From the NCBI GenBank assembly GCA_030141605.1, contig JAQGDQ010001033.1, positions 1 to 64,000 on the forward strand: a DNA stretch of 64,000 bases, written 5' to 3'. The stretch is from Tubiluchus corallicola. Taxonomy: Eukaryota > Priapulida > Priapulimorpha > Priapulimorphida > Tubiluchidae. Under the pieces are notes generated by a model, which saw only the letters and a program-made list of their open reading frames with translations, was not told the origin of the DNA and made no database searches. Positions 3,701 through 63,568 of the stretch are shown one piece after another. How positions within the stretch are numbered: the stretch's first letter is position 1; each line of letters begins with the position of its first letter. The position numbers and the translations under genes were made by a program.

Positions 3701-6700
3701 CCTTCTCCTACACCCCTGTAATTCATCTTCTGACTTCTCCGCACTCATGCTGCTCTCCCCTTCTCCTACACCCCCTGTAATTCATCTTCTGACTTCTCCG
3801 CACTCATGCTGCTCTCCCCTTCTCCTACACCCCCTGTAATTCATCTTCTGACTTCTCCGCACTCATGCTGCTCTCGAATTATGTTGTAAACGTAATTAAT
3901 TTTTGCTTTTACCCTGTAAAATGTGTATTTTAAGGAGACAAATAAAAATTGTCTATGTCTAATAATTAGTTCTTGAAGTTTGTGTGACATCATTCGTGTT
4001 AAAGATCTATTTACAAATATGCACAAATGAATAAATTACTAATGCTTTTTCATCGACTCACCTCTCGAAAGAGGATTTCGTACAATGGCCAAACTCTCAC
4101 TCGAATCAGATTTTCGCCAAAGACAATCCTCCTGCAAATGAGTAATGTTTTATGAAACTCCCTTCTTGCTTTCAGTCAATAGTTAAAAAACATGGGCATC
4201 TTTCATAGCCTGTAAACACTGACTATTTTGCACAGTGTGAAACTGGCTTTCAATCAATAGTTAAAAAACATGGGTATCTTTCACAGCCTGTAAATGCTGA
4301 CTATTTTGCACAGTGAGAAACAGGCTTTCAGTCAATTGTTAAAAAACACGGGTATTTTTCACAGCCTGTAAATGCTGACTATTTTGCACAGTGAGAAACA
4401 GGCTTTCAATCAATAGTTAAAAAACACAGGTATCTTTCATAGCCTGTAAATGCTGACAATTTTGCACAGTGAGAAACAGACTTTCAGTCAATTGTTAAAA
4501 AACATGGGTATCTTTCACAGCCTGTAAATGCTGACTATTTTGCACAGTGAGAAACAGACTTTCAATCAATAGTTAAAAAACATGGGTATCTTTCATAGCC
4601 TGTAAATGCTGACTATTTTGCACAGTGAGAAACAGACTTTCAGTCAATTGTTAAAAAACATGGGTATCTTTCACAGCCTGTAAATGCTGACTATTTTGCA
4701 CAGTGAGAAACAGACTTTCAGTCAATGGTTAAAAAACATGGGTATCTTTCACAGCCTGTAAATGCTGACTATTTTGCACAGTGAGAAACAGGCTTTCAAT
4801 CAATAGTTAAAAAACACAGGTATCTTTCATAGCCTGTAAATGCTGACTATTTTGCACAGTGAGAAACAGACTTTCAGTCAATTGTTAAAAAACATGGGTA
4901 TCTTTCACAGCCTGTAAATGCTGACTATTTTGCACAGTGAGAAACAGACTTTCAGTCAATTGTTAAAAAACACGGGTGTCTTTCATGGCCTGTAAATGCT
5001 GACTATTTTGCACAGTGAGAAACAGGCTTTCAATCAATGGTTAAAAAACACGGGTATCTTTCATAGCCTGTAAATGCTGACTATTTTGCACAGTGAGAAA
5101 CAGACTTTCAGTCAGCGGTTAAAAAACATGGGTATCTTTCACAGCCTGTAAACGCTGACTATTTTGCACAGTGAGAAACAGACTTTCAGTCAATGGTTAA
5201 AAAACATGGGTATCTTTCATAGCCTGTAAACGCTGACTATTTTGCACAGTGAGAAACAGACTTTCAGTCAATGGTTAAAAAACATGGGTATCTTTCATAG
5301 CCTGTAAACGCTGACTATTTTGCACAGTGAGAAACAGACTTTCAGTCAGCGGTTAAAAAACATGGGTATCTTTCACAGCCTGTAAACGCTGACTATTTTG
5401 CACAGTGAGAAACAGACTTTCAGTCAATGGTTAAAAAACATGGGTATCTTTCATAGCCTGTAAACGCTGACTATTTTGCACAGTGAGAAACAGACTTTCA
5501 GTCAATGGTTAAAAAACATGGGTATCTTTCATAGCCTGTAAACGCTGACTATTTTGCACAGTGAGAAACAGACTTTCAGTCAATGGTTAAAAAACATGGG
5601 TATCTTTCATGGCCTGTAAACGCTGACTATTTTGCACAGTGAGAAACAGACTTTCAGTCAATTGTTAAAAAACATGGGTATCTTTCATGGCCTGTAAACG
5701 CTGACTATTTTGCACAGTGAGAAACAGACTTTCAGTCAATTGTTAAAAAACATGGGCATCTTTCATAGCCTGTAAATGCTGACTATTTTGCACAGTGAGA
5801 AACAGACTTTCAGTCAGCGGTTAAAAAACATGGGTATGTTTCACAGCCTGTAAACGCTGACTATTTTGCACAGTGAGAAACAGACTTTCAGTCAATGGTT
5901 AAAAAACATGGGCATCTTTCATAGCCTGTAAATGCTGACTATTTTGTACAGTGAGAAACAAGCTTTCAGTCAATGGTTAAAAAACATGGGTATCTTTCAT
6001 AGCCTGTAAATGCTGACTATTTTGTACAGTGAGAAACAGACTTTCAGTCAATGGTTAAAAAACATGGGCATCTTTCATAGCCTGTAAATGCTGACTATTT
6101 TGCACAGTGAGAAACAGACTTTCAGTTAATGGTTAAAAAACACGGGTATCTTTCACAGCCTGTAAACGCTGACTATTTTGCACAGTGAGAAACAGGCTTT
6201 CAGTCAATGGTTAAAAAACACAGGTATCTTTCATAGCCTGTAAATGCTGACTATTTTGCACAGTGAGAAACAGGCTTTCAATCAATGGTTAAAAAACATG
6301 GGCATCTTTCATAGCCTGTAAATGCTGACTATTTTGCACAGTGAGAAACAGACTTTCAGTTAATGGTTAAAAAACATGGGCATCTTTCATAGCCTGTAAA
6401 TGCTGACTATTTTGCACAGTGAGAAACAAGCTTTCAGTCAATGGTTAAAAAACATGGGTATCTTTCATAGCCTGTAAATGCTGACTATTTTGTACAGTGA
6501 GAAACAGACTTTCAATCAATGGTTAAAAAACATGGGCATCTTTCATAGCCTGTAAATGCTGACTATTTTGCACAGTGAGAAACAGACTTTCAGTTAATGG
6601 TTAAAAAACACGGGTATCTTTCACAGCCTGTAAACGCTGACTATTTTGCACAGTGAGAAACAGGCTTTCAGTCAATGGTTAAAAAACACAGGTATCTTTC

Positions 6701-9700
6701 ATAGCCTGTAAATGCTGACTATTTTGCACAGTGAGAAACAGACTTTCAGTTAATGGTTAAAAAACATGGGCATCTTTCATAGCCTGTAAATGCTGACTAT
6801 TTTGCACAGTGAGAAACAAGCTTTCAGTCAATGGTTAAAAAACATGGGTATCTTTCATAGCCTGTAAATGCTGACTATTTTGCACAGTGAGAAACAGGCT
6901 TTCAATCAATGGTTAAAAAACATGGGTATCTTTCATAGCCTGTAAATGCTGACTATTTTGCACAGTGAGAAACAGGCTTTCAATCAATGGTTAAAAAACA
7001 CGGGTATCTTTCATAGCATGTAAATGCTGACTATTTTGCACAGTGAGAAACAGACTTTCAGTCAATGGTTAAAAAACACGGGTGTCTTTCATGGCCTGTA
7101 AATGCTGACTATTTTGCACAGTGAGAAACAGGCTTTCAATCAATGGTTAAAAAACATGGGTATCTTTCATAAGCATGTAAACGCTGACTATTTTGCACAG
7201 TGAGAAACAGGCTTTAGTCAATGGTTAAAAAACATCGGTATCTTTCATAGCATGTAAATGCTGACAATTTTGCACAGTGAAAAACAGGCACTGCTATGAG
7301 TGAGTCGGTATGGTTATATTCCTGCAGCAATGAAAAACTTACAAAATTCAACTTGGCAATTTTTTGAACCATGGTCCAAAATTGGCTTCAGTTTGCCTAT
7401 AAAGGTCATGCACAAATAAGCATAATGTGATGAAAACATTTGTAGGAATGCAGCTCAGTATTTACTGACGACTGAATCTACACAATAGTTGACAAATAGA
7501 AACATTTTTATGTATTTCTCACTGTAATAATATTTACATAAGCCTAACTAAAAGAAGCCATACCTATTAGCTTGTTCACCCGGCGTGAGACCATTGCACA
7601 TGTAGAAATAAGAGCATGGTACCCCACCAGAATCTAACGTTCTGAAATAATAAGCATAGTAATGTGAACGACGACGACGATGGTGGCGGTGATGATTATG
7701 ATAACGACAATGATAGTAACTACTGAAAATCTCGTAAACAAGATTACACTCAACAATGAATGAAATTCTACGGTGTATTTTTACTAATCTTGGCCTCTTT
7801 AACACAAATAAATATTTGGACAAGAGAAATCAACAAGAAAGGTTATAGGAAGCACAGCATTGGCAAGCCAAAGACGAAGAAACAACAATGGCTTTGCACG
7901 CCATTGTTTTCCAAGCAAGAGAAGAAACAACAATGGCTTTGCACGCCATTGTTTTCCAAGCAAGAGAAGAAACAACAATGGCTTTGCACGCCATTGTTTT
8001 CCAAGCAAGAGAAGAAACAACAATGGCTTTGCACGCCATTATTTTCCAAGCAAGAGAAGAAACAACAATGGCTTTGCACGCCATTGTTTTCCAAGCAAGA
8101 GAAGAAACAACAATGGCTTTGCATGCCATTATTTTCCAAGCAAGAGAAGAAACAACAATGGCTTTGCACGCCATTGTTTTCCAAGCAAGAGAAGAAACAA
8201 CAATGGCTTTGCACGCCATTATTTTCCAAGCAAGAGAAGAAACAACAATGGCTTTGCACGCCATTGTTTTCCAAGCAAGAGAAGAAACAACAATGGCTTT
8301 GCACGCCATTATTTTCCAAGCAAGAGAAGAAACAACAATGGCTTTGCACGCCATTATTTTCCAAGCAAGAGAAGAAACAACAATGGCTTTGCACGCCATT
8401 GTTTTCCAAGCAAGAGAAGAAACAACAATGGCTTTGCACGCCATTGTTTTCCAAGCAAGAGAAGAAACAACAATGGCTTTGCACGCCATTGTTTTCCAAG
8501 CAAGAGAAGAAACAACAATGGCTTTGCACGCCATTATTTTCCAAGCAAGAGAAGAAACAACAATGGCTTTGCACGCCATTGTTTTCCACGCAAGAGAAGA
8601 AACAACAATGGCTTTGCACGCCATTGTTTTCCAAGCAAGAGAAGAAACAACAATGGTTTTGCAAGCCATTGTTTTCCAAGCAAGAGAAGAAACAACAATG
8701 GCTTTGCACGCCATTATTTTCCAAGCAAGAGAAGAAACAACAATGGCTTTGCACGCCCCATTGTTTTCCAAGCAAGAGAAGAAACAACAATGGCTTTGCA
8801 CGCCATTATTTTCCAAGCAAGAGAAGAAACAACAATGGTTTTGCAAGCCATTGTTTTCCAAGCAAGAGAAGAAACAACAATGGCTTTGCACGCCATTGTT
8901 TTCCAAGCAAGATAAGAAACAACAATGGTTTTGCAAGTCATTGTTTTCCACGCAAGAGAAGAAACAACAATGGCTTTGCACGCCATTGTTTTCCAAGCAA
9001 GAGTTTCACCAAACGGAATCTGACACTAAACTGTAGCCAATCATCTTGGTGGAGCTCTTTTTAAAAGAGTTTTGTCACACCTTGTAAAGTGTTCATCTTC
9101 TCTTTCCAAAGAACATTAGCTCTCTCTCACACACAAGAGAAGCACTACAGGATTTTTGTACATAGGACTCAGGAAAGATTTAAAAAAAATCGGATAGATA
9201 AGTTTGAAGATAAATGAGCGAAGCTGTCTACGAATTCTAGACAAACCTGCTACATACACTGTCAAACTTAGTACCAAACCATTACCAGAATTATAATGTT
9301 CGTTAATAATAAAGATATAACCATTTGAATCATCACAACATCAGACTAAAGTGTAGCAACTCTTCAACGATCACACTACTTCAGAATGACGTAACCACCT
9401 GAGTAACTGAAAACTTTGCGACTCCGGCTCCCAGATGTAGCGGACTTTCTTGTTTTGAAAATACCGCATTTTTGGCACTGGCAAGAAATTTCCCTGCACA
9501 AACAAAAAACCAACAAAAATGAACGCCACGGTGTTCTAACACTAATAATAAAAAGCACTGGGCCTATTAAACAGCCCTATTTCTTACGTAAAGACATATT
9601 AATAATGCAAATTATATGAAATAATTAAATTTTAATCTAAGCTAACATGCATTCAGTTGCACTTTTATTTATTATTACCCAGGCCTGACGCTGCTTAACT

Positions 9701-20800: not shown

Positions 20801-23800
20801 ACTCGTTTTGATATATTTTAGCAACATTTACACAGCTTACTGCCAATTAAATAAATTAGAATAGCTGTCTTTGTTTGTCAATGAAAATATTCTTTAAGAA
20901 ACATCACCATTTTATTCATTAAACAAAAAAGTTAGTAAGAAAAAGAAAGAAATTTTAGAAAAAGGAAATACATTTACAGAACAGAACCAACTTAAAATGA
21001 TTCATTAAGACAATAATTTTAGAGGAAAGGACACTTAGCACTTAGCATGTTGGGTTTATTTTAGTCATTTACTGTTATCACTTAAACTGTTTGTGGTGTG
21101 CTAAAGGAAGGACAAGTCACTCAACATGTTGGGTTTATTTCACTGTTATCACTTAAACTGTTTGTGGTGCGCTAAAGGAAAGAACAAGTCACTCAGTATG
21201 TTGGGTTTATTTTACTGTTATCACTTAAACTGTTTGTGGTGTGCTAAAGGAAGGACAAGTCACTCAGCATGCTGGGTTTGTTTCACTGTTATCACTTAAA
21301 CTGTTTGTGGTGCGCTAAAGGAAGGACAAGTCACTCAGCATGCTGGGTTTGTTTCACTGTTATCACTTAAACTGTTTGTGGTGCGCTAAAGGGAGGACAA
21401 GTCACTTAGCATGTTGGGTTTATTTTACTGTTATCACTTAAACTGTTTGTGGTGTGCTAAAGGAAGGACAAGTCACTCAGCATGCTGGGTTTGTTTCACT
21501 GTTATCACTTAAACTGTTTGTGGTGTGCTAAAGGAAGGACAAGTCACTTAGCATGTTGGGTTTATTTCACTGTTATCACTTAAACTGTTTGTGGTGCGCT
21601 AAAGGGAGGACAAGTCACTCAGCATGTTGGGTTTATTTTACTGTTATCACTTAAACTGTTTGTGGTGCGCTAAAGGAAGGACAAGTCACTCAGCATGTTG
21701 GGTTTATTTTACTGTTATCACTTAAACTGTTTGTGGTGCGCTAAAGGAAGGACAAGTCACTCAGCATGTTGGGTTTATTTTACTGTTATCACTTAAACTG
21801 TTTGTGGTGTGCTAAAGGGAGGACAAGTCACTCAGCATGTTGGGTTTATTTTACTGTTATCACTTAAACTGTTTGTGGTGCGCTAAAGGAAAGACAAGTC
21901 ACTCAGTATGTTGGGTTTGTTTTACTGTTATCACTTAAACTGTTTGTGGTGTGCTAAAGGAAGGACAAGTCACTCAGTATGTTGGGTTTATTTTACTGTT
22001 ATCACTTAAACTGTTTGTGGTGTGCTAAAGGGAGGACAAGTCACTCAGCATGTTGGGTTTATTTTAGTCATTTACTGTTATCACTTAAACTGTTTGTGGT
22101 GCGCTAAAGGAAGGACAAGTCACTTAGCATGTTGGGTTTATTTTAGTCATTTACTGTTATCACTTAAATTTAAAGAAACATAACGAAGAAATGTGCAATA
22201 AAAACCTCTCTATAAAGCTTAAAGCTAATTTATACTAACACTGTATAGAAATTTTCAGGCCTGGTGGTAACTGCAATTCACTTGAAAATTATGATGTAAC
22301 TGGTAAACTTTATGGCTTTTTCTAAGTGCAATGTGGTTTTTCCTTAAGCGTGCACTGTTTAAATTAATTCAAACTTCTTCAGTTTACTTAATGTACATGC
22401 GAAAATATCGCAAAATTAGTATCTATTATTGTACCATTATGCTTTTGAAATAAGCGGACAATGCGCTTCTTTTCTTCAACTAATGAATGATGTCATTGAC
22501 GGAAGGAATGTACATTCAAAATGGGAGCGCAAACGCTCGAAATGATCGCAATTTTAAAGTGATTTTACTAATTACTCTTATCAGTCTTTTATTACTACAT
22601 CCTTTCTATCATTTTTATCAAACACTGAAACAAGCCTAACTTCCCAGAAAGTGTGGCCTTTTCCTTTAATCAGAAGGACTATAAGCTTGTAACTTTTCAC
22701 ATGCCAAGACAACAGGGATCTTACAAAGTTACGTCACATTATAATTTTCACTAACTAGCACTTTCAGAGTACATATTGTGAACTGGATCTTCCACGCCTA
22801 ACTTCCCAGAAAGTGTGGCCTTTTCCTTTAATCCGGTGGACTATAAGCTTGTAACTTTTCACATACGAACACAACAGGGATCTTACAAAGTTACGTCACA
22901 TTATAATTTTCACTAACTAGCACTTTCAGAGTACATATTGTGAACTGGATCTTCCATGCGATGGTGTGCATTACATGCAAACAGTTTGACCTTCGCCTGC
23001 CTGCCCCAGGACATAATGACCAATTGAGTGGACAGCGCACATGAAACATGTTACTTAATGAAGTCACAGTACGAAGGGCAGATCATTCGCTTATTTTCAG
23101 CCAGACGTTGTAAAGGCCAAGGACAAGGTGGTATTGCCAGCAGGAAAATAAGGTGGAGAAAACCCAGTGATGTGGTATAATGTGAAGACAGCAAGAAATT
23201 TAGGAGGGTTTTGCTATGGCAAAATCTTAAACAGAAATATAGTCTCAGGTAGAGTGATGGGCAATTTTGAAATTTTATTTTCGATTTAAAGCAAAAAGGT
23301 TGAAACAACGAAAAACAAAAAGGGTGAAACAACAAAAAGTAAAAAGGGTGAAACAACGAAAAGCAAAAAGGTTGAAACAACGAAAAGCAAAAAGGGTGAA
23401 ACAACAAAAAGCAAAAAGGTTGAAACAACAAAAAGCAAAAAAGGTTGAAACAACAAAAAGTAAAAAGGGTGAAACAACAAAAAGCAAAAAAGGCTGAAAC
23501 AACAAAAAGCAAAAAAGGCTGAAACAACAAAAAGCAAAAAAGGCTGAAACAACAAAAAGCAAAAAAGGTTGAAACAACGAAAAGCAAAAAGGGTGAAACA
23601 ACGAAAAGCAAAAGGTTGAAACAACAAAAAGCAAAAAGGGTGAAACAACGAAAGCAAAAACATACATAAAGAGACAGTTTTCACAATTATGACATAATAA
23701 AAATGCCGCACTAATACTGATCTAGAAGTCTTGTAAAACAATTAACTGGCTTGTGCTGCCACCTTTTAATCAGATTTATAAACTTTCCTTCAACAGATGG

Positions 23801-26800
23801 CAGTACTGGACAAAAAAATTGAAAACTTGTTTATTTCACGACAAAAAATAAATCAAGGTAGATAAAATGTTTTCTTTAGCCAGACAGGAGGTAACTACTG
23901 CAAATAGCTATGTGTTATAAACTCGTAATAAATATTACAATTTATATCATAAATGAGAATTTACAAAATTATTTATTATCCTTCATAAGTGAGTTTATGT
24001 AAATAAAGTGAAATAAAAACTCTACTAGATAAAAAACCGCAACAAAGTAAGTGATATGCTCGAATCAGTGATATGCTAAGTGACACTTGATTCTAAAAAA
24101 ACTGTTGAAAATGAAAACAGTTTTAAAGACAGCAACAAATCGTAATATAATACCGAGAATGAGTATTGAACCCAATGTTCATACATTGATTCACTAACCG
24201 GGCTTGGTGTTGCTTAACTTTGGTCACCAAAGTTACTAATGCACATCTCAGGAAAACAATTAGCCACACATGCTGTTACCTGTCCATTCATCGATCATGT
24301 CACAACAAACATTGTGAAACATACCTTTTCTGGGTAACCCTACCAGCGAAACTTAATGACAGACGTAAACCGAGACACCATTACTGCGTGAAAACATTAA
24401 TCACGTTAAAACCCGTTTCATCGCATCACAAGAGGCGAACACAACGCATGTGACAAACAATGATCATTATCTGCTAAGGATAAGGCCAGGTAAGGTTCAA
24501 GCATTCAGAAATTTCACTAATCTATAGTCATTTCAAACACAACTAAAGCACCTGGCTGTGAGGTGGATGATTCAAGATAACAGAATATGCCTGTCAAATG
24601 AATAAACGCTTGAAAAAGAGGACAAATAAGCGGTGCGAATAGTCGGCATGATTTTCCAAATCAGAAGATTAAAAAATACATATGAAATTAAATCAGATGA
24701 ATAAATATTTGTGAAATGACAAGCATTTCCAGAAGAGAATAAGTATTTTTTAACACTGGACCCTTAAAATCTGGTGCCTCTCAGAATTTGGTCCCCTGGG
24801 TTACAGCCTAATTAGTCTTCTGATAGATACGCCCCTGCAAACAGCCTGTTATTGCTGGGAAGTTGGGAACGATGTCACACGGGACAACAGAAGTTAAAGA
24901 GTTAAACAACAGAAGAAAATTGTCACTTTCAAAGACGTTTCTAGGGGAATGCCGTGATGAAAAAGAACCCTTGGCGTAAACAAATCCAAGTTAGAATATT
25001 ACATTGGATTGGGCGTGTACTAAGACTACCAGACTAGCCCAAGAATCTCCTCTTCCCATGAAGACGATGATGATGATGATTGTGATGATCTGTATGATGT
25101 GATGAAGAAGAACCCTTGGAATAAACAAATCCAAGTTAGAATATTACATTGGATTGGGCGTGTACTAAGACTACCAGATTAGCCCAAGAATCTCCTCTTC
25201 CCATGAAGATGATGATGATGATGATTGTGATGATCTGTATGATGTGATGAAGAAGAACCCTTGGAATAAACAAATCCAAGTTAAAATATTGCATTGGATT
25301 GGGTGTGTACTAAGACTACCAGACTATCCCAAGAATCTCCTCTTCCCATGAAGATGATGATGATGATGATTGTGATGATCTGTATGTGATGAAAAAGAAC
25401 CCTTGGCGTAAACAAATCCAAGTTAGAATATTGCATTGGATTGGGCGTGTACTAAGACTACCAGATTAGCCCAAGAATCTCCTCTTCCCATGAAGATGAT
25501 GATGATGATGATTGTGATGATCTGTATGATGTGATGAAGAAGAACCCAAGGAATAAACAAATCCAAGTTAGAATATTGCATTAGATTGGCCATGTACTAA
25601 GACTACCAGACAGGCTGAAGAATCTTCTCTTGCCACAGTAAAGCTCTTGAAATGACAAAAACCACCTAGAGGGGGGGGGGGGTGTCAACTACTGATTTAC
25701 ATAGATAAGCTGCAAAAAGATCTGGCAAATACAATTCTAGATTTTTGGGAAGATGCATTGCGGGCGCAGTGTCGGAGGGCGCCATGTTTTAGAGCTTAAA
25801 AGCATGGAAATGAGGAAATGGTGAATTCAAACAACTATTTCATCCCGGCGTTAAACAAAAGAAATTCCACAAAAGCCATCTGTCTTACCATCTGAGTTTC
25901 TTCTCCAATATTAACATACTGCCGGTCACGACTGATACGTCCTTCCAATGGCACGCGACCAAAAGATGAACTGTTAGCGCCCTGAGTTGATTGTGTGGAG
26001 TACTGCCCTGTCATCTGGGCCATACCTACAATCAAAAAATCAATACTTGTGAGTAACCACAGTAATCCACAGTAAAAGTCAGTCAATCTTGTTAATTATT
26101 CTTTCATGCCAGAGTACAAACTTTGATTTCGTAGCTCCTATCCTTTCCTGCTGGAACATTAGCTACTTCTGTACGCTGTCTTTCATTACGGTGAGCTTAC
26201 TGACTGAAATTTAAGTTTAAGCAAAACTGCAACGGTATAACTGCTTACTTGCTAGAGTGTTCATTAATTTTTTTGTCGTGTAAAACACAGCACCGCCACG
26301 ATATTTCACATAAACATGACTTGTGTACTGATTAGGGGTGAGCATAGCTGTTGTCCAGTATTCACCGTTTACTGTCAGCTTTTCTTGGTTAATTTTTATA
26401 AGCATTAAAGCAACATATTCGATTTGTTTAAAATCATTTTAATTATATTATAATTAATTTAATATAAAAAGTAACTCTGGTACATCTTACAACAGAAGTT
26501 TACTGCACTGGATTTTTATACTGAAGTTCAGGGGAAAAATTTCGAAACCCAAATATTCGGTGCATCGTTAAGCAGGTGCTACTGTACATGTATGTGCAAA
26601 ATGCTAATGAAACACGTGCTCCAAACTAAAAATGTGAACCATGTAAGTGTGAATAACCATGTAAGTGTGAGTGTACTCACGCAAATCATTAGAGTCAGCA
26701 CCATCATAAGTCTGTCCAGATTCCCCATCAGCTGTTGAAGAGGAGGGTAAATCATGATATACCCCTAAGAAAAAATACCAAATACATGAAATTCAACTTC

Positions 26801-38780: not shown

Positions 38781-39498
38781 CATAGGCATCAAACATGCTC
38801 CAAAGTACGATTTCATAACGCCAATCAGTCAAATAATAAACGAAAACATTGTTCACTGTCCACTGTCCAAGGGGCAAAGACAATCACTATACCTTACTGT
38901 GCACTACACGACAGCGTAAAGAAATGTAGAAAATATTTCTCAATTCAGGTATCGACGGGCAAACATATATTTACATGATTACATCATAATTTTACGCGCG
39001 CACGGTGTTCATTGGTGTATAAAGACGAATTTTATTTAAACTGTGCAAATAAGAAACGATAAGAGACGTCTATATCACATATACTGATCAACTTATCGCA
39101 CTATCAACAATGCTAAACGCTCGAGACGCGAAAAACATAAAAAAAAAACCACGAAGGCAAGTGAACGTCAGACCAACATGGTGGTAAAAACTGGGCAAGA
39201 ATTTACCAAGGTAGGCGGTCTAAAGAAAAGAGTCATAAAAATATGGGTGCCATCACGGTCAACTAAGCAGAGGCGTTCTCATTGGACGTGTTTGTCCATT
39301 AGCCACAGCCTTTTGTCAGCTTTCAAGTTTACATACAATGTCAAAGCAAGACCACAAAGCGATTCTCAACAAAGCTAATTACCCAAACGTTATACAGTGC
39401 AATGTATTCGAATCAAGGCGTTTTGCCAGACACAATAATAATAAACAGACCCGAACGAAGTACGAAAATATTATTCCTAGTGAAAAATTAAAGAAAAA
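38781..39498. other. Upstream region of the P5B gene
   Basis: Possible promoter or 5' UTR zone by position only. No confident core-promoter element seen. Confidence 0.4.
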
Positions 39499-39838
39499 AA
39501 CAAGTCACTCAGTATGTTGGGTTTATTTTACTGTTATCACTTAAACTGTTTGTGGTGTGCTAAAGGAAAAAACAAGTAACTCAGTATGTTGGGTTTATTT
39601 TACTGTTATCACTTAAACTGTTTGTGGTGTGCTAAAGGAAAGAACAAGTAACTCAGTATGTTGGGTTTATTTTACTGTTATCACTTAAACTGTTTGTGGT
39701 GTGCTAAAGGAAACAACAAGTCACTCAGTATGTTGGGTTTATTTTACTGTTATCACTTAAACTGTTTGTGGTGTGCTAAAGGAAAGAACAAGTCACTCAG
39801 TATGTTGGGTTTATTTTACTGTTATCACTTAAACTTAA
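39499..39838. repeat. 71-bp minisatellite, 5 copies, locus 2
   Basis: Same unit as 21035-22172 (acaagtcactcagtatgttg, atcacttaaactgtttgtgg), 1.6-1.9 kb upstream of the P5B start codon. Confidence 0.96.
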
Positions 39839-52345: not shown

Positions 52346-53009
52346 CACAGCACTTAACAGAAACTGAGCTACACTAATTGCAGCATCAGTCTTCTTTTTT
52401 TGTTATGTAATAATAAATTGAAGATTAAAATCAATATAATAAATAATTACTTAAATTTTAATTGTAACTAATATTACTATAATTATCATTAAGATGAGCA
52501 ATATTTCATATCTAGAGTTAGTGGTTTTTTAATGCCGCAAACTTTTTAAGCTTAAGAAGCCCGCTGTAAATAATCACAGGCAATAATAATGCATTTTGTT
52601 TAAAGCATCTTATTTAAATTTAGCTCACATTAGGTGTGTAGACAGGTGAGATATTTATCTCTTACTTTGTACTAACCACATTAAACCATATCTGTTAAAT
52701 GCAGATTTCACTCAAGATCTTGCACTTCACTTTAAAAAACTTTGGCTGTTAAGAATCCTCTCACTCGAAATTTCATTTTAGTGAGTAAACTTAAAAACAC
52801 TTTCGGCAGTTTTTGCAATTGTACAATGAAGGAATTAACATTTTTTTCTATTGAGTTAAGTACAGTTTTATCTAAAAATTTTATAGTACTAAACACTGAA
52901 GTACATCTTTAATTTCCTTTTTATTACTCAAAACATTTTTAGCCCGAAATCCACATATTTCCTGCATATCTGATACAATAAGCGCAGGTAATTGAACATA
53001 TGCGTTATT
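52346..53009. other. Intergenic, no feature seen
   Basis: AT-rich unique sequence. Confidence 0.5.
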
Positions 53010-53705
53010 AAAGCACAAGAAAACCCTCATAAACATAAAGCTTGAAAAATTGGGCTTGAAATTTTTCACCACTTACTCACCGCTTTCTTGCATACAGGGC
53101 TTGGATCGGCAGTAACGCTGTATAAAACATGTAAATTAAAACTCCCGCGGTAACCATTAGACGCAGAATTTTTGTCGACAGGTCATTTGAAACAAGTTTA
53201 GATAACATTCTCTAAAAGTTGGAAAAATAATCAGCGCATTCGTAGCGCACAAGTCACTAACTAAATAAAATTTAAATTTACTGTATCTTGTTAACAAGAT
53301 TAAAACACGTTCATGGTTTGTGAGTGGTGCACCCTGGCGGGTGAGTCAGCGACATTTTATCAATTGGTGAAAACCTTTTATATAATTAATAATTTTCTTT
53401 TCTAGTTACATAAGTCTGTCAACCAGGCCAGCGAAATGATAAGTAAAATAACTTCACGTGAAAAGTTTTTTTTTGCGACATAGTTTAATATTGTCTTTCC
53501 TTTCCCTGATTTATGTTTGCGCAAGTGACGCAATGGCACGGTTGGCACAGTGTCGCGGGAGATTTAAAATGAAAACAAACAACAATTCCTTTCAATGCAA
53601 GTACGATATATGCATAAAATGCTATAAAGTAATATAATTTTTTACTGAAGGTAATTTATCTGAAACCTACTTCAGGTACCCACTTTCTTCTCCTTTAATG
53701 GATTG
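53010..53705. repeat. Dispersed element B, copy 2
   Basis: Matches 27665-28460 without the 89-bp internal duplication. Confidence 0.8.
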
Positions 53706-58601: not shown

Positions 58602-59569
58602 CTATGAATGGGTTTCGCGCGACTCACTACATTTTATATCAGCTACACTACGAACGGATTTTCGTAAGAACACTTCTAATCGTTTTCTGGCTTGTTTTTC
58701 GTCTTCCATATGCTTACTCATCCAAGTGATTTGATTTTCCAAAACAGTAACTTTGTCTTTCAGTGCATATACTGTATCCACTAGGCTTCTCTCCTCCACG
58801 ATCGTCTGATTCCCCTTCGTTTCCTCGATGATGATTTTCTCATCTTCGGCAATGAGAACTTGAGGGCTGTCTAGGAGGGCGGAGTTGACCGTGTAGCGAG
58901 TTTTGGCACTAGTACAGTAGCCCTCGATCACCCGAAGAACCATTTGGTCATCGGTTGCCATAATGTCTACTTTCTTATTCGGAAGTGCAGACGTGACGGC
59001 TTTGCGATGCGATCGCGGACTGATAATCGCAAGCGGTTCTTTCTCCTTGGCTACGGGAAGACACGGTCGAATCGGAGGAGCCGGCCGAAGGCGCGATATG
59101 CTCCACGGTTTACTCGGAGGAAAGGGCAGAGGTCCACCATGATGAGGTATGGGCAAGGGCGCGGGTTCGAGACGACCCTGCTTGTGTTCGGTCACTGCCA
59201 CCAGAGCAGGAGACGGTCCCGCCGATAACTGCGGCACTGCATACTTTCCGACAGCAACCTGGCTAAGCTTGATGTGTTGGTCAAGTAGTTCCAGCCACTG
59301 TTGCTGTTCAGACAATGACCCGCAGATCACGGTCATTTGCTCGATAAGCCGACCGGAAAGTTCAAAAGAGTTTTTCGCCTGTTCGCTGTCCTCAAGTTTC
59401 TTCACGTTGAGATGCGCCAGCTGAATTTGACCTTCGTAAATGTAGCAACTAAGTCGATGGCTAACGGATAAGACAACGAGCGTGTACGGAAAAAGAACAA
59501 AATAACGATCTTTCTTCTCGCTGCCAGGACTGCCGACAATGCTTACTGACGTCATTAGCTTAATTTCAC
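58602..59569 (-). CDS. ARHGEF7: PIX exon with PH, proline-rich, GIT-binding and coiled-coil regions
   Basis: Acceptor atttttcag. Begins EIKLMTSVSI and ends at TAG (58604-58602). Carries 321 residues, over half the protein, in one exon. The open frame extends 18 codons upstream through the acceptor, but beta-PIX similarity starts at the splice site. Confidence 0.96.
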
Positions 59570-62500
59570 CTGAAAAATCACACCAAGATATATGAAAATC
59601 ACAAATACTTGCGCAGAACAATTTACTACAGAGGCGTAGTAGGGGGGGGGCGCGACAGGGGGCAATCAGTCCCCTCTGCAGGAGTGAGAGGGCACAAAAA
59701 TTCTTCTAGAGTTTAATGACCGCTAATTATGTAGTGTTCCGTATACTTCATACTTCACAAGTTTTGCTTCATAAAATTTGTAAGGATTTGAAGAAAATAG
59801 GAAGACCATGGCACCTCTATATAGAGAGCATATTCGATAATACAAATGACTGACATACTTTTTGCAGTTCCGTAAGATTGAAAATCATTTTGAATTCCGA
59901 GAATATGCATTTTGTCACATCACAATATTTATTGTTTGTTTAAAAAATCTTTTAGCACGTCAAGCGCAATTCGATTACTAACACAAAAACAGATTACCTA
60001 GAGTTGAGAAGGGTTCCCCACACGCCAAGCGCAACTCAATTACTAACACATAAACAGATTACCTAGAGTTGAGAAGGGTTCTTCACACGCCAAGCTCAAC
60101 TCAATTAGTAACACATAAACAGATTACCTAGAGTTGAGAAGGGTTCTTCACACGCCAAGCTCAACTCAATTACTAACACATAAACAGATTACCTAGAGTT
60201 GAGAAGGGTTCTTCACACGCCAAGCTCAACTCAATTACTAACACATAAACAGATTACCTAGAGTTGAGAAGGGCTCCCCACACGCCAAGCGCAACTCAAT
60301 TACTAACACATAAACAGATTACCTAGAGTTGAGAAGGGTTCTTCACACGCCAAGCTCAACTCAATTACTAACACATAAACAGATTACCTAGAGTTGAGAA
60401 GGGTTCTACGCATGCCAAGCTCAACTCAATTACTAACACATAAACAGATTACCTAGAGTTGAGAAGGGTTCCCCACACGCCAAGCTCAACTCAGTTACTA
60501 ACACATAAACAGATTACCTAGAGTTGAGAAGGGTTCTACGCACACCAAGCTCAACTCAATTACTAACACATAAACAGATTACCTAGAGTTGAGAAGGGTT
60601 CCCCACACGCCAAGCTCAACTCAATTACTAACACATAAACAGATTACCTAGAGTTGAGAAGGGTTCCCCACATGCCAAGCTCAACTCAATTACTAACACA
60701 TAAACAGATTACCTAGAGTTGAGAAGGGTTCTACGCACGCCAAGCTCAACTCAATTACTAACACATAAACAGATTACCTAGAGTTGAGAAGGGTTCCCCG
60801 CATGCCAAGCGCAACTCAATTACTAACACATAAACAGATTACCTAGAGTTGAGAAGGGTTCCCCACACGCCAAGCTCAACTCAATTACTAACACATAAAC
60901 AGATTACCTAGAGTTGAAAAGGGTTCCCCACACGCCAAGCGCAACTCAATTACTAACACATAAACAGATTACCTAGAGTTGAGAAGGGTTCTACACACGC
61001 CAAGCTCAACTCAATTAGTAACACATAAACAGATTACCTAGAGTTGAGAAGGGTTCCCAACACGCCAAGCGCAACTCAATTAGTAACACATAAACAGATT
61101 ACCTAGAGTTGAGAAGGGTTCCCCACACGCCAAGCGCAACTCAATTAGTAACACATAAACAGATTACCTAGAGTTGAGAAGGGTTCTAGACACGCCAAGC
61201 TCAACTCAATTAGTAACACATAAACAGATTACCTAGAGTTGAGAAGGGTTCCCCGCACACCAAGCGCAACTCAATTACTAATACTAAACAGATTACCTAG
61301 AGTTGAGAAGGGTTCTCCTTCCCAACCCTTAATGTTGCCAGTCAGAACTTCAATTTCCATCTCCTTCTGCTTTCGTATTCGTTCACACCGAGTGATAATT
61401 TCCCTGCAAGTAATTGTACCAAAGGGAACGGTTAGTCGAAATACATTGAAATTACATATTAAATACATATAGAGTAAGACTCTACCGGTGCATTTATCGT
61501 AAATTTATTTGCAAGCACACATATCTCGGTTGCCGGACCTCACTTTTACGGATATCGGAAGAATTGGACAAAATCTGGAGCGATAAAAAGTCCAGCATCC
61601 TGCAGACACAGTCCATTGTTTCTGACTGACCGCTGTCCGGTAGTTCGGCGGGCCGTTACTTTGTTTACATCATTACATTAGTGTAACCAAGCAGTGTGTA
61701 ACGACAAGTGTGTAGCTTGTATGTCAGCATATTTGAAGTGGTTTTATTAGCATCTGTAACCATACAGACATACAGTTTTTATATACTTCTGCACAGGAGT
61801 GGCCCATACTAGACGTTTTCGAGACAATTAGGCGATTGATTCTACATTACTGTGAGTATAATACACAGCACCTACTGTATCAGCTTAGTATTGGTAAAAT
61901 ACGGACGACCAGCAAATTCGGACCGACGTCTCCCCGCTTTTGTCCGGCAAACTGAGGTATGAGTGTATACAAAACACCAAATTTTTTTAGGTCCTACCCA
62001 AAATAAATTCACAAGACTGTTCATTTGTTTTTTGAAACAGAATCATTTTTAAAAATGTAAAAAATAGCATATAACTAGCGTACACAAAAACTAAGCAAAA
62101 ACCAAATTGACAAACTCATTAGAATTTTGTAATAATTAAATACAATTTAAATTTATTATTACTTTGAAATCTTGTACTATACATAACTGTCTAGCATTAT
62201 ATACACTAAAGAGTCAGCTTCTACGAATCAACATGTTTATTGAGCTACGATCGTTTCGGCTATTGAAGCCATTATCAAACTATAAATGAAGCCAAAAAAG
62301 AGGAATAAATAACACATTAATGATACAAAGGCACAAACTGAAACTACAAAACAACAGATTAGAATTTAACTTACCAAAATAAACCAGGTTGTAATGGAAG
62401 ACATTGCAAAGAAATATACAAAATTTTACCCAACACATGAAAACCAAAAAAGAACACAACAGGCTAACAACCAAACCAAGTCCACACGATGAAGAACCAC

Positions 62501-63568
62501 AGCAGCAAGAACTACAAGAACACTTGTTGTGCGCCTGTTGTGTTCTTTTTTGATTTTCATGTGTTGGGTGAAACTTTGTATATTTCTTTGCAATGTCTTC
62601 CGTTACAACGTTGTTTATTTTGATAAGTTAAATTCGAATCTGTTGTTTTGTAGTTTCAGTTTGTGTTTTTGTATCATTAATGTATTATTTATTCATCTAT
62701 TTGGCTTCATTTATAGTTTGATAATGGCTTCAATAGCTGAAACAATAGTCGCTCAATAAACATGTTGTCTAGCATTAGTCAGTAACTTGATGCCACACCT
62801 GTAAACTAGGACAGATCTTTGAGTGTCACCTCTGTCTGCGTGTCCTTCGTCCGTCTGCCTTTCTAGCTCTTTCAACATTACAGGATATTTTGAAAGTCGA
62901 CGAAATGGTAGACTAAGTGACGTTGTAAGCAGCATGATTCCGGGGGCGGGAGCACCGTGGGATTCCATAAAACTACCCAAACGTTCTTTGTATTTTGTCA
63001 ACACCAAAACAGCCCAGGGATGATTAGAACAGTAATCACCATACAGATCCTTCAGTTTAGGTGCAACGGCTATGAAAATGCCACCGATCCTTTGCTGATG
63101 GTACGGCAAAGTAGATGCATCTATTAACGAAGCTAGAACAGTTTTTTGAAAGTCTATCACATCATTTAAGTTCGCACACAACTGTTGAAACTCCTGCGGA
63201 GTCAGCACTTCGGAGACTCGTAATGGTCGCAAGTAACTCTGTATCACGGTATCGAGTTCCGATATGTACTGAGTTTCAGTCTCGATTATATCACGCACGA
63301 CCACAGCATGGTAAGCTCTGATACTCTTTCGCTTAGAATGTTCTATCTCCGCTATATGAGGAGGGCTCCTGGCTCTATCAGGTGCAATCTCCCTCACATA
63401 GTTACTAGGAAACCAACCTGTTCTGTCGTTAAGCGTCCCCTCCCACCAGCCACCATCCAATGTTTGTGTAACAGTGATTATGTCACCTTTTTTAAAGTTA
63501 AGTTCGTCGGTGTTTTGACCCTTAAATGTATAAATCGCACAAACTTTCATTTTATCACTGCCTTCCAT
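58602..63568 (-). CDS. ARHGEF7: PIX/Cool Rho guanine-nucleotide exchange factor (ARHGEF6/7 type), 614 aa
   Basis: PIX proteins activate Rac/Cdc42, bind PAK through SH3 and form large complexes with GIT ArfGAPs at focal adhesions and synapses. Three minus-strand coding exons join in phase. SH3 spans ~8-61 (AIYTF, DGGWWEG, GWFPSNYV). DH spans ~85-270 (ETETQYISEL, SNHPWAVLVLT, KYPVMLKELER). PH spans ~293-394 (KKDRYFVLFPYTL, KKLEDSEQAKNSFELSG). A KPWSISRLRPAPPIRP motif follows near 446, then the GIT-binding VIEGYCTSAKTR near 505, and a coiled coil ~550-597 opening EERSLVDTVYALKDKV. All align in order with vertebrate beta-PIX (~646 aa). No CH domain is visible, so this is a short form, or a CH exon lies beyond the window. 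C-terminus RETHS replaces the vertebrate DETNL PDZ ligand. In the order of transcription PIX lies upstream of the P5B gene. Confidence 0.97.
59570..59993. other. PIX last intron, 3' part
   Basis: Contains cagaggcgtagtaggggggg at ~59632, resembling a hAT end without a visible partner. Confidence 0.5.
59994..61300. repeat. 65-bp minisatellite carrying copies of a PIX exon end and splice donor
   Basis: Twenty copies at exact 65-bp spacing (acctag at 59996 to 61231), plus the authentic exon boundary at 61295. Each unit on the minus strand reads gaacccttctcaactctag then gtaatctgttt, that is, exon end plus intron start. The exon-derived part is almost invariant; the rest varies (ccccacacg/cttcacacg/ctacgcacg, caagcg/caagct). 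Confidence 0.97.
61297..61403 (-). CDS. ARHGEF7: PIX DH-PH linker exon
   Basis: 107 nt, acceptor cttgcag, donor gtaatc. Encodes EIITRCERIRKQKEMEIEV, then LTGNIKGWEGEPFSTL, matching beta-PIX QCQEVRKRKELELQI...WEGDDIKTLGN. Its last ~19 nt and its donor are the source of, or were copied into, the 65-bp array that follows. Confidence 0.95.
61522..61960 (+). mobile_element. pogo/Tigger-like MITE, copy 2
   Basis: Ends tatctcggttgccggac and gtccggcaaactgaggta are inverted repeats. Body matches 2246-2766 without the internal duplication. Lies in a PIX intron, ~120 bp upstream of the linker exon in the sense of transcription. Confidence 0.8.
62230..62765. repeat. Long inverted repeat, arms ~235 bp, ~65-bp spacer
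   Basis: Arms 62230-62465 and 62530-62765 are reverse complements with few mismatches (acatgtttattgagc at one end, aagaacacaacaggc at the other). Each arm ends in a block like gataatggcttcaatagc, tgaaac, ctcaataaacatg, which resembles 3' ends of Penelope-like or other retroelements. Lies in the PIX intron between the SH3-DH exon and the linker exon. Confidence 0.93.
62799..63568 (-). CDS. ARHGEF7: PIX exon with SH3 and DH domains
   Basis: Residues 1-256 plus two bases. Start MEGSDKMKVCAIYTF at 63568. An in-frame stop lies upstream, and an acceptor-like tgtctttag (exon edge near 63590) may mark a 5' UTR exon junction. A short out-of-frame ATG sits 5 bases before the start. Donor gtgtgg is in phase with the next exon; the frame reads on into the intron for a further 14 codons. 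Confidence 0.95.

Follow-up and report, generated by a model that had tools for sequence, protein, structure and literature searches.

Which 5′ splice site is used where the end of an exon, together with its donor, recurs twenty times within the following intron, and how could such an array have come about? Both questions are raised by a cell-signalling gene, PIX, in the window, by which we mean the whole stretch of 64,000 nucleotides from Tubiluchus corallicola that was analysed. We consider it probable that a minisatellite grew in place from an exon-intron junction of this gene, that its expansion was passive and that splicing proceeds from the first, exon-proximal donor only. The parts of this explanation that we infer are the gene model, the direction of origin, the exon-proximal choice, the involvement of NMD and the absence of a regulatory role.

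The PIX gene and its junction array

The minus strand encodes at 58602-63568 a complete three-exon PIX (ARHGEF6/7-type) gene with a spliced frame of 614 amino acids, for which the exon model was built from homology and GT-AG frames. In its product the SH3, DH and PH domains and the betaPIX coiled coil follow each other in this order, all four above the Pfam cut-off, and PIX was also the top match in a search of PDB sequences. Together with the alignment to human PIX proteins, these results bear out the predicted identity of the gene, of exon 2 and of its donor. The relevant features are as follows, with exon-intron boundaries marked by a slash:

62799-63568, minus strand: PIX exon 1, coding part, with the SH3 and DH domains and the donor CAG/GTGTGG (homology, GT-AG frame)
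61297-61403, minus strand: PIX exon 2, 107 nt, the DH-PH linker, ending in CTCTAG/GTAATC (frame continuity, alignment with human PIX proteins)
59570-61296, minus strand: PIX intron 2, 1727 nt (gene model; the acceptor at 59570 is the best-scoring AG of the intron)
58602-59569, minus strand: PIX exon 3, with the PH domain, the RhoGEF67_u2 region, the betaPIX coiled coil and the stop codon (Pfam, gene model)
59956-61315, minus strand: 65-bp minisatellite, 20.9 copies, covering the last 19 nt of exon 2 (TRF, unit table)
61289-61315, minus strand: true exon-intron junction, the 27-mer GAACCCTTCTCAACTCTAG/GTAATCTG, with the real donor (motif search; donor score at the 41st percentile, n = 29)
59990-61251, minus strand: twenty decoy donors, copies of the 27-mer, running from 61225-61251 (first) to 59990-60016 (last) (motif search)
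61271-61273, minus strand: in-frame TGA met on any decoy use, 24-26 nt past the true donor (conceptual translation; the open reading frame ends at 61271)

The gene was located in one contig only in a search of the assembly, and the overlapping contig C931 stops short of it. As a separate observation, there are 13 equally scoring occurrences of a RhoGEF-like exon, on contigs C14, C457, C628, C1781, C2254 and others, three of these occurrences being at identical contig coordinates (332777-332956), which suggests redundancy among the contigs or a duplication that was both large and recent. Intron 1 of PIX holds a large inverted repeat (62229-62767) with arms of 177 nt that are 92% complementary and 54 nt apart, and with outer arms of 68 nt that are 94% complementary; it looks like a fold-back element.

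The 27-mer spanning the junction has 21 matches at two or fewer mismatches, all of them on the minus strand between 59990 and 61315, against a shuffled expectation of 0, and the array in which they lie has an internal identity of 94% matches (TRF). A minisatellite that carries the end of a PIX exon and its 5′ splice site is thus present as predicted, but it occupies 59956-61315, and the interval given originally (59994-61403) also took in the remainder of the exon. The real donor has its first intronic base at 61296; the first decoy follows 64 nt further on, at 61232, and the others come every 65 nt down to 59997, with a spacing of 64-65 nt between the 27-mer copies. The original prediction further held that some 19 exonic bases and the donor were repeated exactly in 20 units, with a change in the exonic part of one unit only. 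The donor portion agrees with this, since CTCTAG/GTAATCTG is intact in 20 of 20 intronic units as well as at the true donor, but the complete 27-mer is exact in 18 of the 20; two units, not one, carry a single substitution each (60250-60276 and 60900-60926).

In most units the identity with the exon edge extends over 19-20 nt upstream of the junction and over 12 nt downstream of it, and the true start of the intron likewise agrees with the later units for 12 nt before it diverges. The unit on the exon side is one base short and diverged, and the copy at the far edge has diverged too; diverged copies at both edges are the usual pattern of a minisatellite. A check for neighbour structure showed adjacent units of the array to be no more similar to each other than shuffled units.

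Origin within a minisatellite-rich region

A search of the 343.5-Mb assembly with the repeat unit, a type of search that can miss matches, placed all 21 matches inside the array of PIX intron 2. Insertion of a dispersed minisatellite or of a transposon-derived repeat was rejected, as this search, within its limits, placed the unit at a single locus. The end of exon 2 translates in frame as E-P-F-S-T-L-G, and human alpha-PIX has T-L-G in common with it, which points to the exon end being old coding sequence and to an exon older than the array; the array was therefore most likely copied from the exon. The likely origin, and the best model that these sequence comparisons offer, is a duplication in place that proceeded from exon to array, and the predicted origin by repeated duplication of the exon-intron junction is supported by the confinement of the unit to one locus and by the partial conservation of the exon end with human alpha-PIX. 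The process would have started with the tandem duplication of a 65-bp segment, comprising about 19-20 nt of exon end and about 45 nt of intron start, at the junction of exon 2 and intron 2; expansion and homogenisation of the array would then have produced the present order, in which 20 identical donor motifs come after the true donor.

The direction could also be the reverse, with a minisatellite born in the intron whose edge replaced the end of the exon, so that the exon gained array sequence. The 19-20 nt of identity between exon and array would fit this course too, and E-P-F-S differs from the corresponding D-D-I-K of human alpha-PIX bar one conservative change. However, both T-L-G and the frame that continues through the junction fit human PIX, so that the exon is ancestral coding sequence in its last bases at least, and the assembly, within the reach of a search that can miss matches, offers no other source of the unit. 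We regard the reverse direction as improbable and retain duplication from the exon.

The window as a whole is rich in minisatellites, with 21 arrays (periods of 21-145 bp, up to about 93 copies) making up 34% of its bases, compared with 0.8% in 210 kb of genic sequence sampled around conserved exons at 54 loci on other contigs, although these comparison samples are small and unmatched for distance from genes. No long array was found in two arbitrary 10-kb stretches. In such surroundings an array that lies at the edge of an exon calls for no particular cause, and the local excess fits a passive expansion of the PIX array.

Several other repeats were observed. Contig C931 (26.9 kb) matches the left end of the window alone, at 99% identity, and where the window has 40 copies of a 78-bp array (4169-7287), C931 has about 4 and 9 copies in two blocks (21827-25356); allelic length variation, duplication or an assembly error are possible reasons for the difference. 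From the lower copy number on C931, the arrays of the region may differ in length between haplotypes, though a recent duplication or a fault in the assembly could look no different. Two arrays of the window that lie 17 kb apart (21068-22168 and 39489-39835) share nearly the same 71-72-bp unit, and 53008-53698 is a segment of about 690 bp from a high-copy dispersed repeat (about 82-84% identity at the 40 places scored of 4968 candidates). At locus L075, fibronectin-like pieces, judged by eye to be coding, flank a partial copy of the 18S rRNA gene (about 1390-2500), as if this copy had been inserted into an intron.

Choice among the donors and consequences of decoy use

Splice sites were scored against 29 donors and 29 acceptors hand-picked from the myosin genes of this genome, a small set curated by eye in which GT or AG was required at the matching positions of paralogues. 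The donor of PIX exon 2 is of middling strength on this scale (41st percentile among the 29 myosin donors), and its nine scored bases are identical in the real site and in every decoy. The low variation that had been reported for the exonic part relative to the rest of the unit did not reach significance: 2 of 27 columns are variable in the junction and 9 of 38 in the remainder (Fisher p = 0.10), and of the 65 positions at which a 27-column window can be laid on the circular unit, 24 contain equally few variable columns, so that the junction is not exceptional. Selection on the decoys was rejected on these grounds. Local folding did not set the real donor apart either, its unpaired probability at a span of 120 being 0.020 against 0.008-0.090 for the decoys, with a like outcome at a span of 200; RNA structure that hides the decoys was rejected, as predicted accessibility does not favour the real donor. 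Among the features tested, position is the only one that distinguishes the true donor.

The original prediction had proposed that array length tunes splicing or the isoform ratio. The decoys would then compete for U1, and the length of the array would determine how much of the PIX transcript pool is unstable or truncated to SH3-DH; if this were true, more copies would divert more U1 and more splicing, and allele length would tune Rac/Cdc42 signalling. Such competition is compatible with decoys that do not differ from the real donor at any of the nine scored bases, are equally accessible and are intact in 20 of 20 cases, and intronic minisatellites have been associated with alternative splicing in Caenorhabditis elegans (PMC4039745). 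It is opposed by a junction not significantly more conserved than the rest of the unit, by the ability of a recently homogenised array to keep intact copies without selection and by human F7, which normally uses the most upstream donor only (PMC6627357). A tuning role is thus unsupported, and we hold a regulatory array to be very improbable. With passive expansion, splicing would most likely use the first, exon-proximal donor in an oriented choice, and the other 20 would be removed with the intron.

Splicing from a decoy adds either 64 nt to exon 2 or 64 nt plus a multiple of 65. Conceptual translation confirms the predicted in-frame TGA after LFSISN: the readthrough peptide ends in STLGNLFSISN, and the SH3-DH frame comprises 300 amino acids. 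The stop lies 38 nt from the new junction with the first decoy and more than 100 nt from it with decoys 2-20. As a general rule of NMD, a stop within about 50 nt of the downstream junction escapes, whereas one farther away leads to degradation. By this rule, mRNAs spliced from decoys 2-20 should be degraded, and as only the first decoy leaves the stop within about 50 nt, the product of decoy use is more likely an unstable RNA than a stable SH3-DH isoform; the truncated frame that had been predicted is there, but the isoform itself is the less likely outcome. Occasional decoy use would accordingly bring in the TGA and yield a truncated SH3-DH reading frame, mostly on RNA degraded by NMD.

Comparison with known systems

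Recursive splice sites, or ratcheting points, consist of abutting AG/GT within an intron. PIX intron 2 shares this feature, as the CTCTAG that ends each unit abuts the GTAATC of the next exactly, in every unit, and the array could conceivably be removed as a series of 65-nt GT...AG units with zero-length exons, spliced out one by one, or, in a variant, as retained units taken out scarlessly with the same donor restored each time. Introns can also arise by tandem duplication of AGGT-containing segments in the model of Rogers (PMC4974935), and the duplicated PIX segment does span AG/GT. In contrast to recursive sites, however, the PIX units are without a strong polypyrimidine tract and their acceptor scores fall under nearly all real ones: the unit AGs score -2.5 to 1.9 and the real acceptors 0.5 to 12.1, most of the former being below the weakest of the latter. 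These poor acceptors make piecemeal removal unlikely, and we give both the stepwise course and its scarless variant, taken jointly, hardly any probability. The unit-end AGs depart from the Rogers model as well, since the intron ends at the separate, good acceptor at 59570, the best in intron 2, and nothing indicates a newly formed intron. An assignment to recursive or Rogers-type AGGT intron arrays, which have a good acceptor with a polypyrimidine tract, was rejected on the scores of the unit AGs (-2.5 to 1.9).

In human segmental duplications, internal tandem repeats occur at exon-intron boundaries (PMC2812944), where, as in PIX, expansion of a minisatellite at such a boundary alters the potential gene structure. 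The human cases come from comparison of paralogues, have transcript support and include some novel introns, whereas PIX is one gene copy with an existing intron, described from genomic DNA.

Judged by its genomic sequence, the arrangement is filed as one of the type of intron 7 in the human clotting-factor gene F7. In F7, the normal donor sits in the first of several highly similar 37-bp tandem repeats, later repeats contain donor-like copies, and the most upstream donor alone is normally used (PMC6627357, citing Borensztajn et al. 2006). A +5 mutation of the first donor causes exon skipping and the use of downstream cryptic donors. Likewise, the first repeat of the PIX array holds the authentic donor and the later repeats carry near-identical donor motifs (CTCTAG/GTAATCTG in 20 of 20); unlike F7, the unit is 65 bp instead of 37 bp with 20 downstream copies, and the gene is another one in a distant animal, the F7 evidence being mammalian. 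By analogy with F7, only the first of the 21 PIX donors is probably used, and the array illustrates how a minisatellite that arises at an exon edge can be tolerated provided that the true donor comes first. With 21 donors that share the same nine scored bases, have near-identical downstream surroundings and differ mainly in position, it forms a natural experiment on the choice of 5′ splice sites, in which RNA from one individual would tell whether the upstream-donor rule of human F7 holds in a distant animal.
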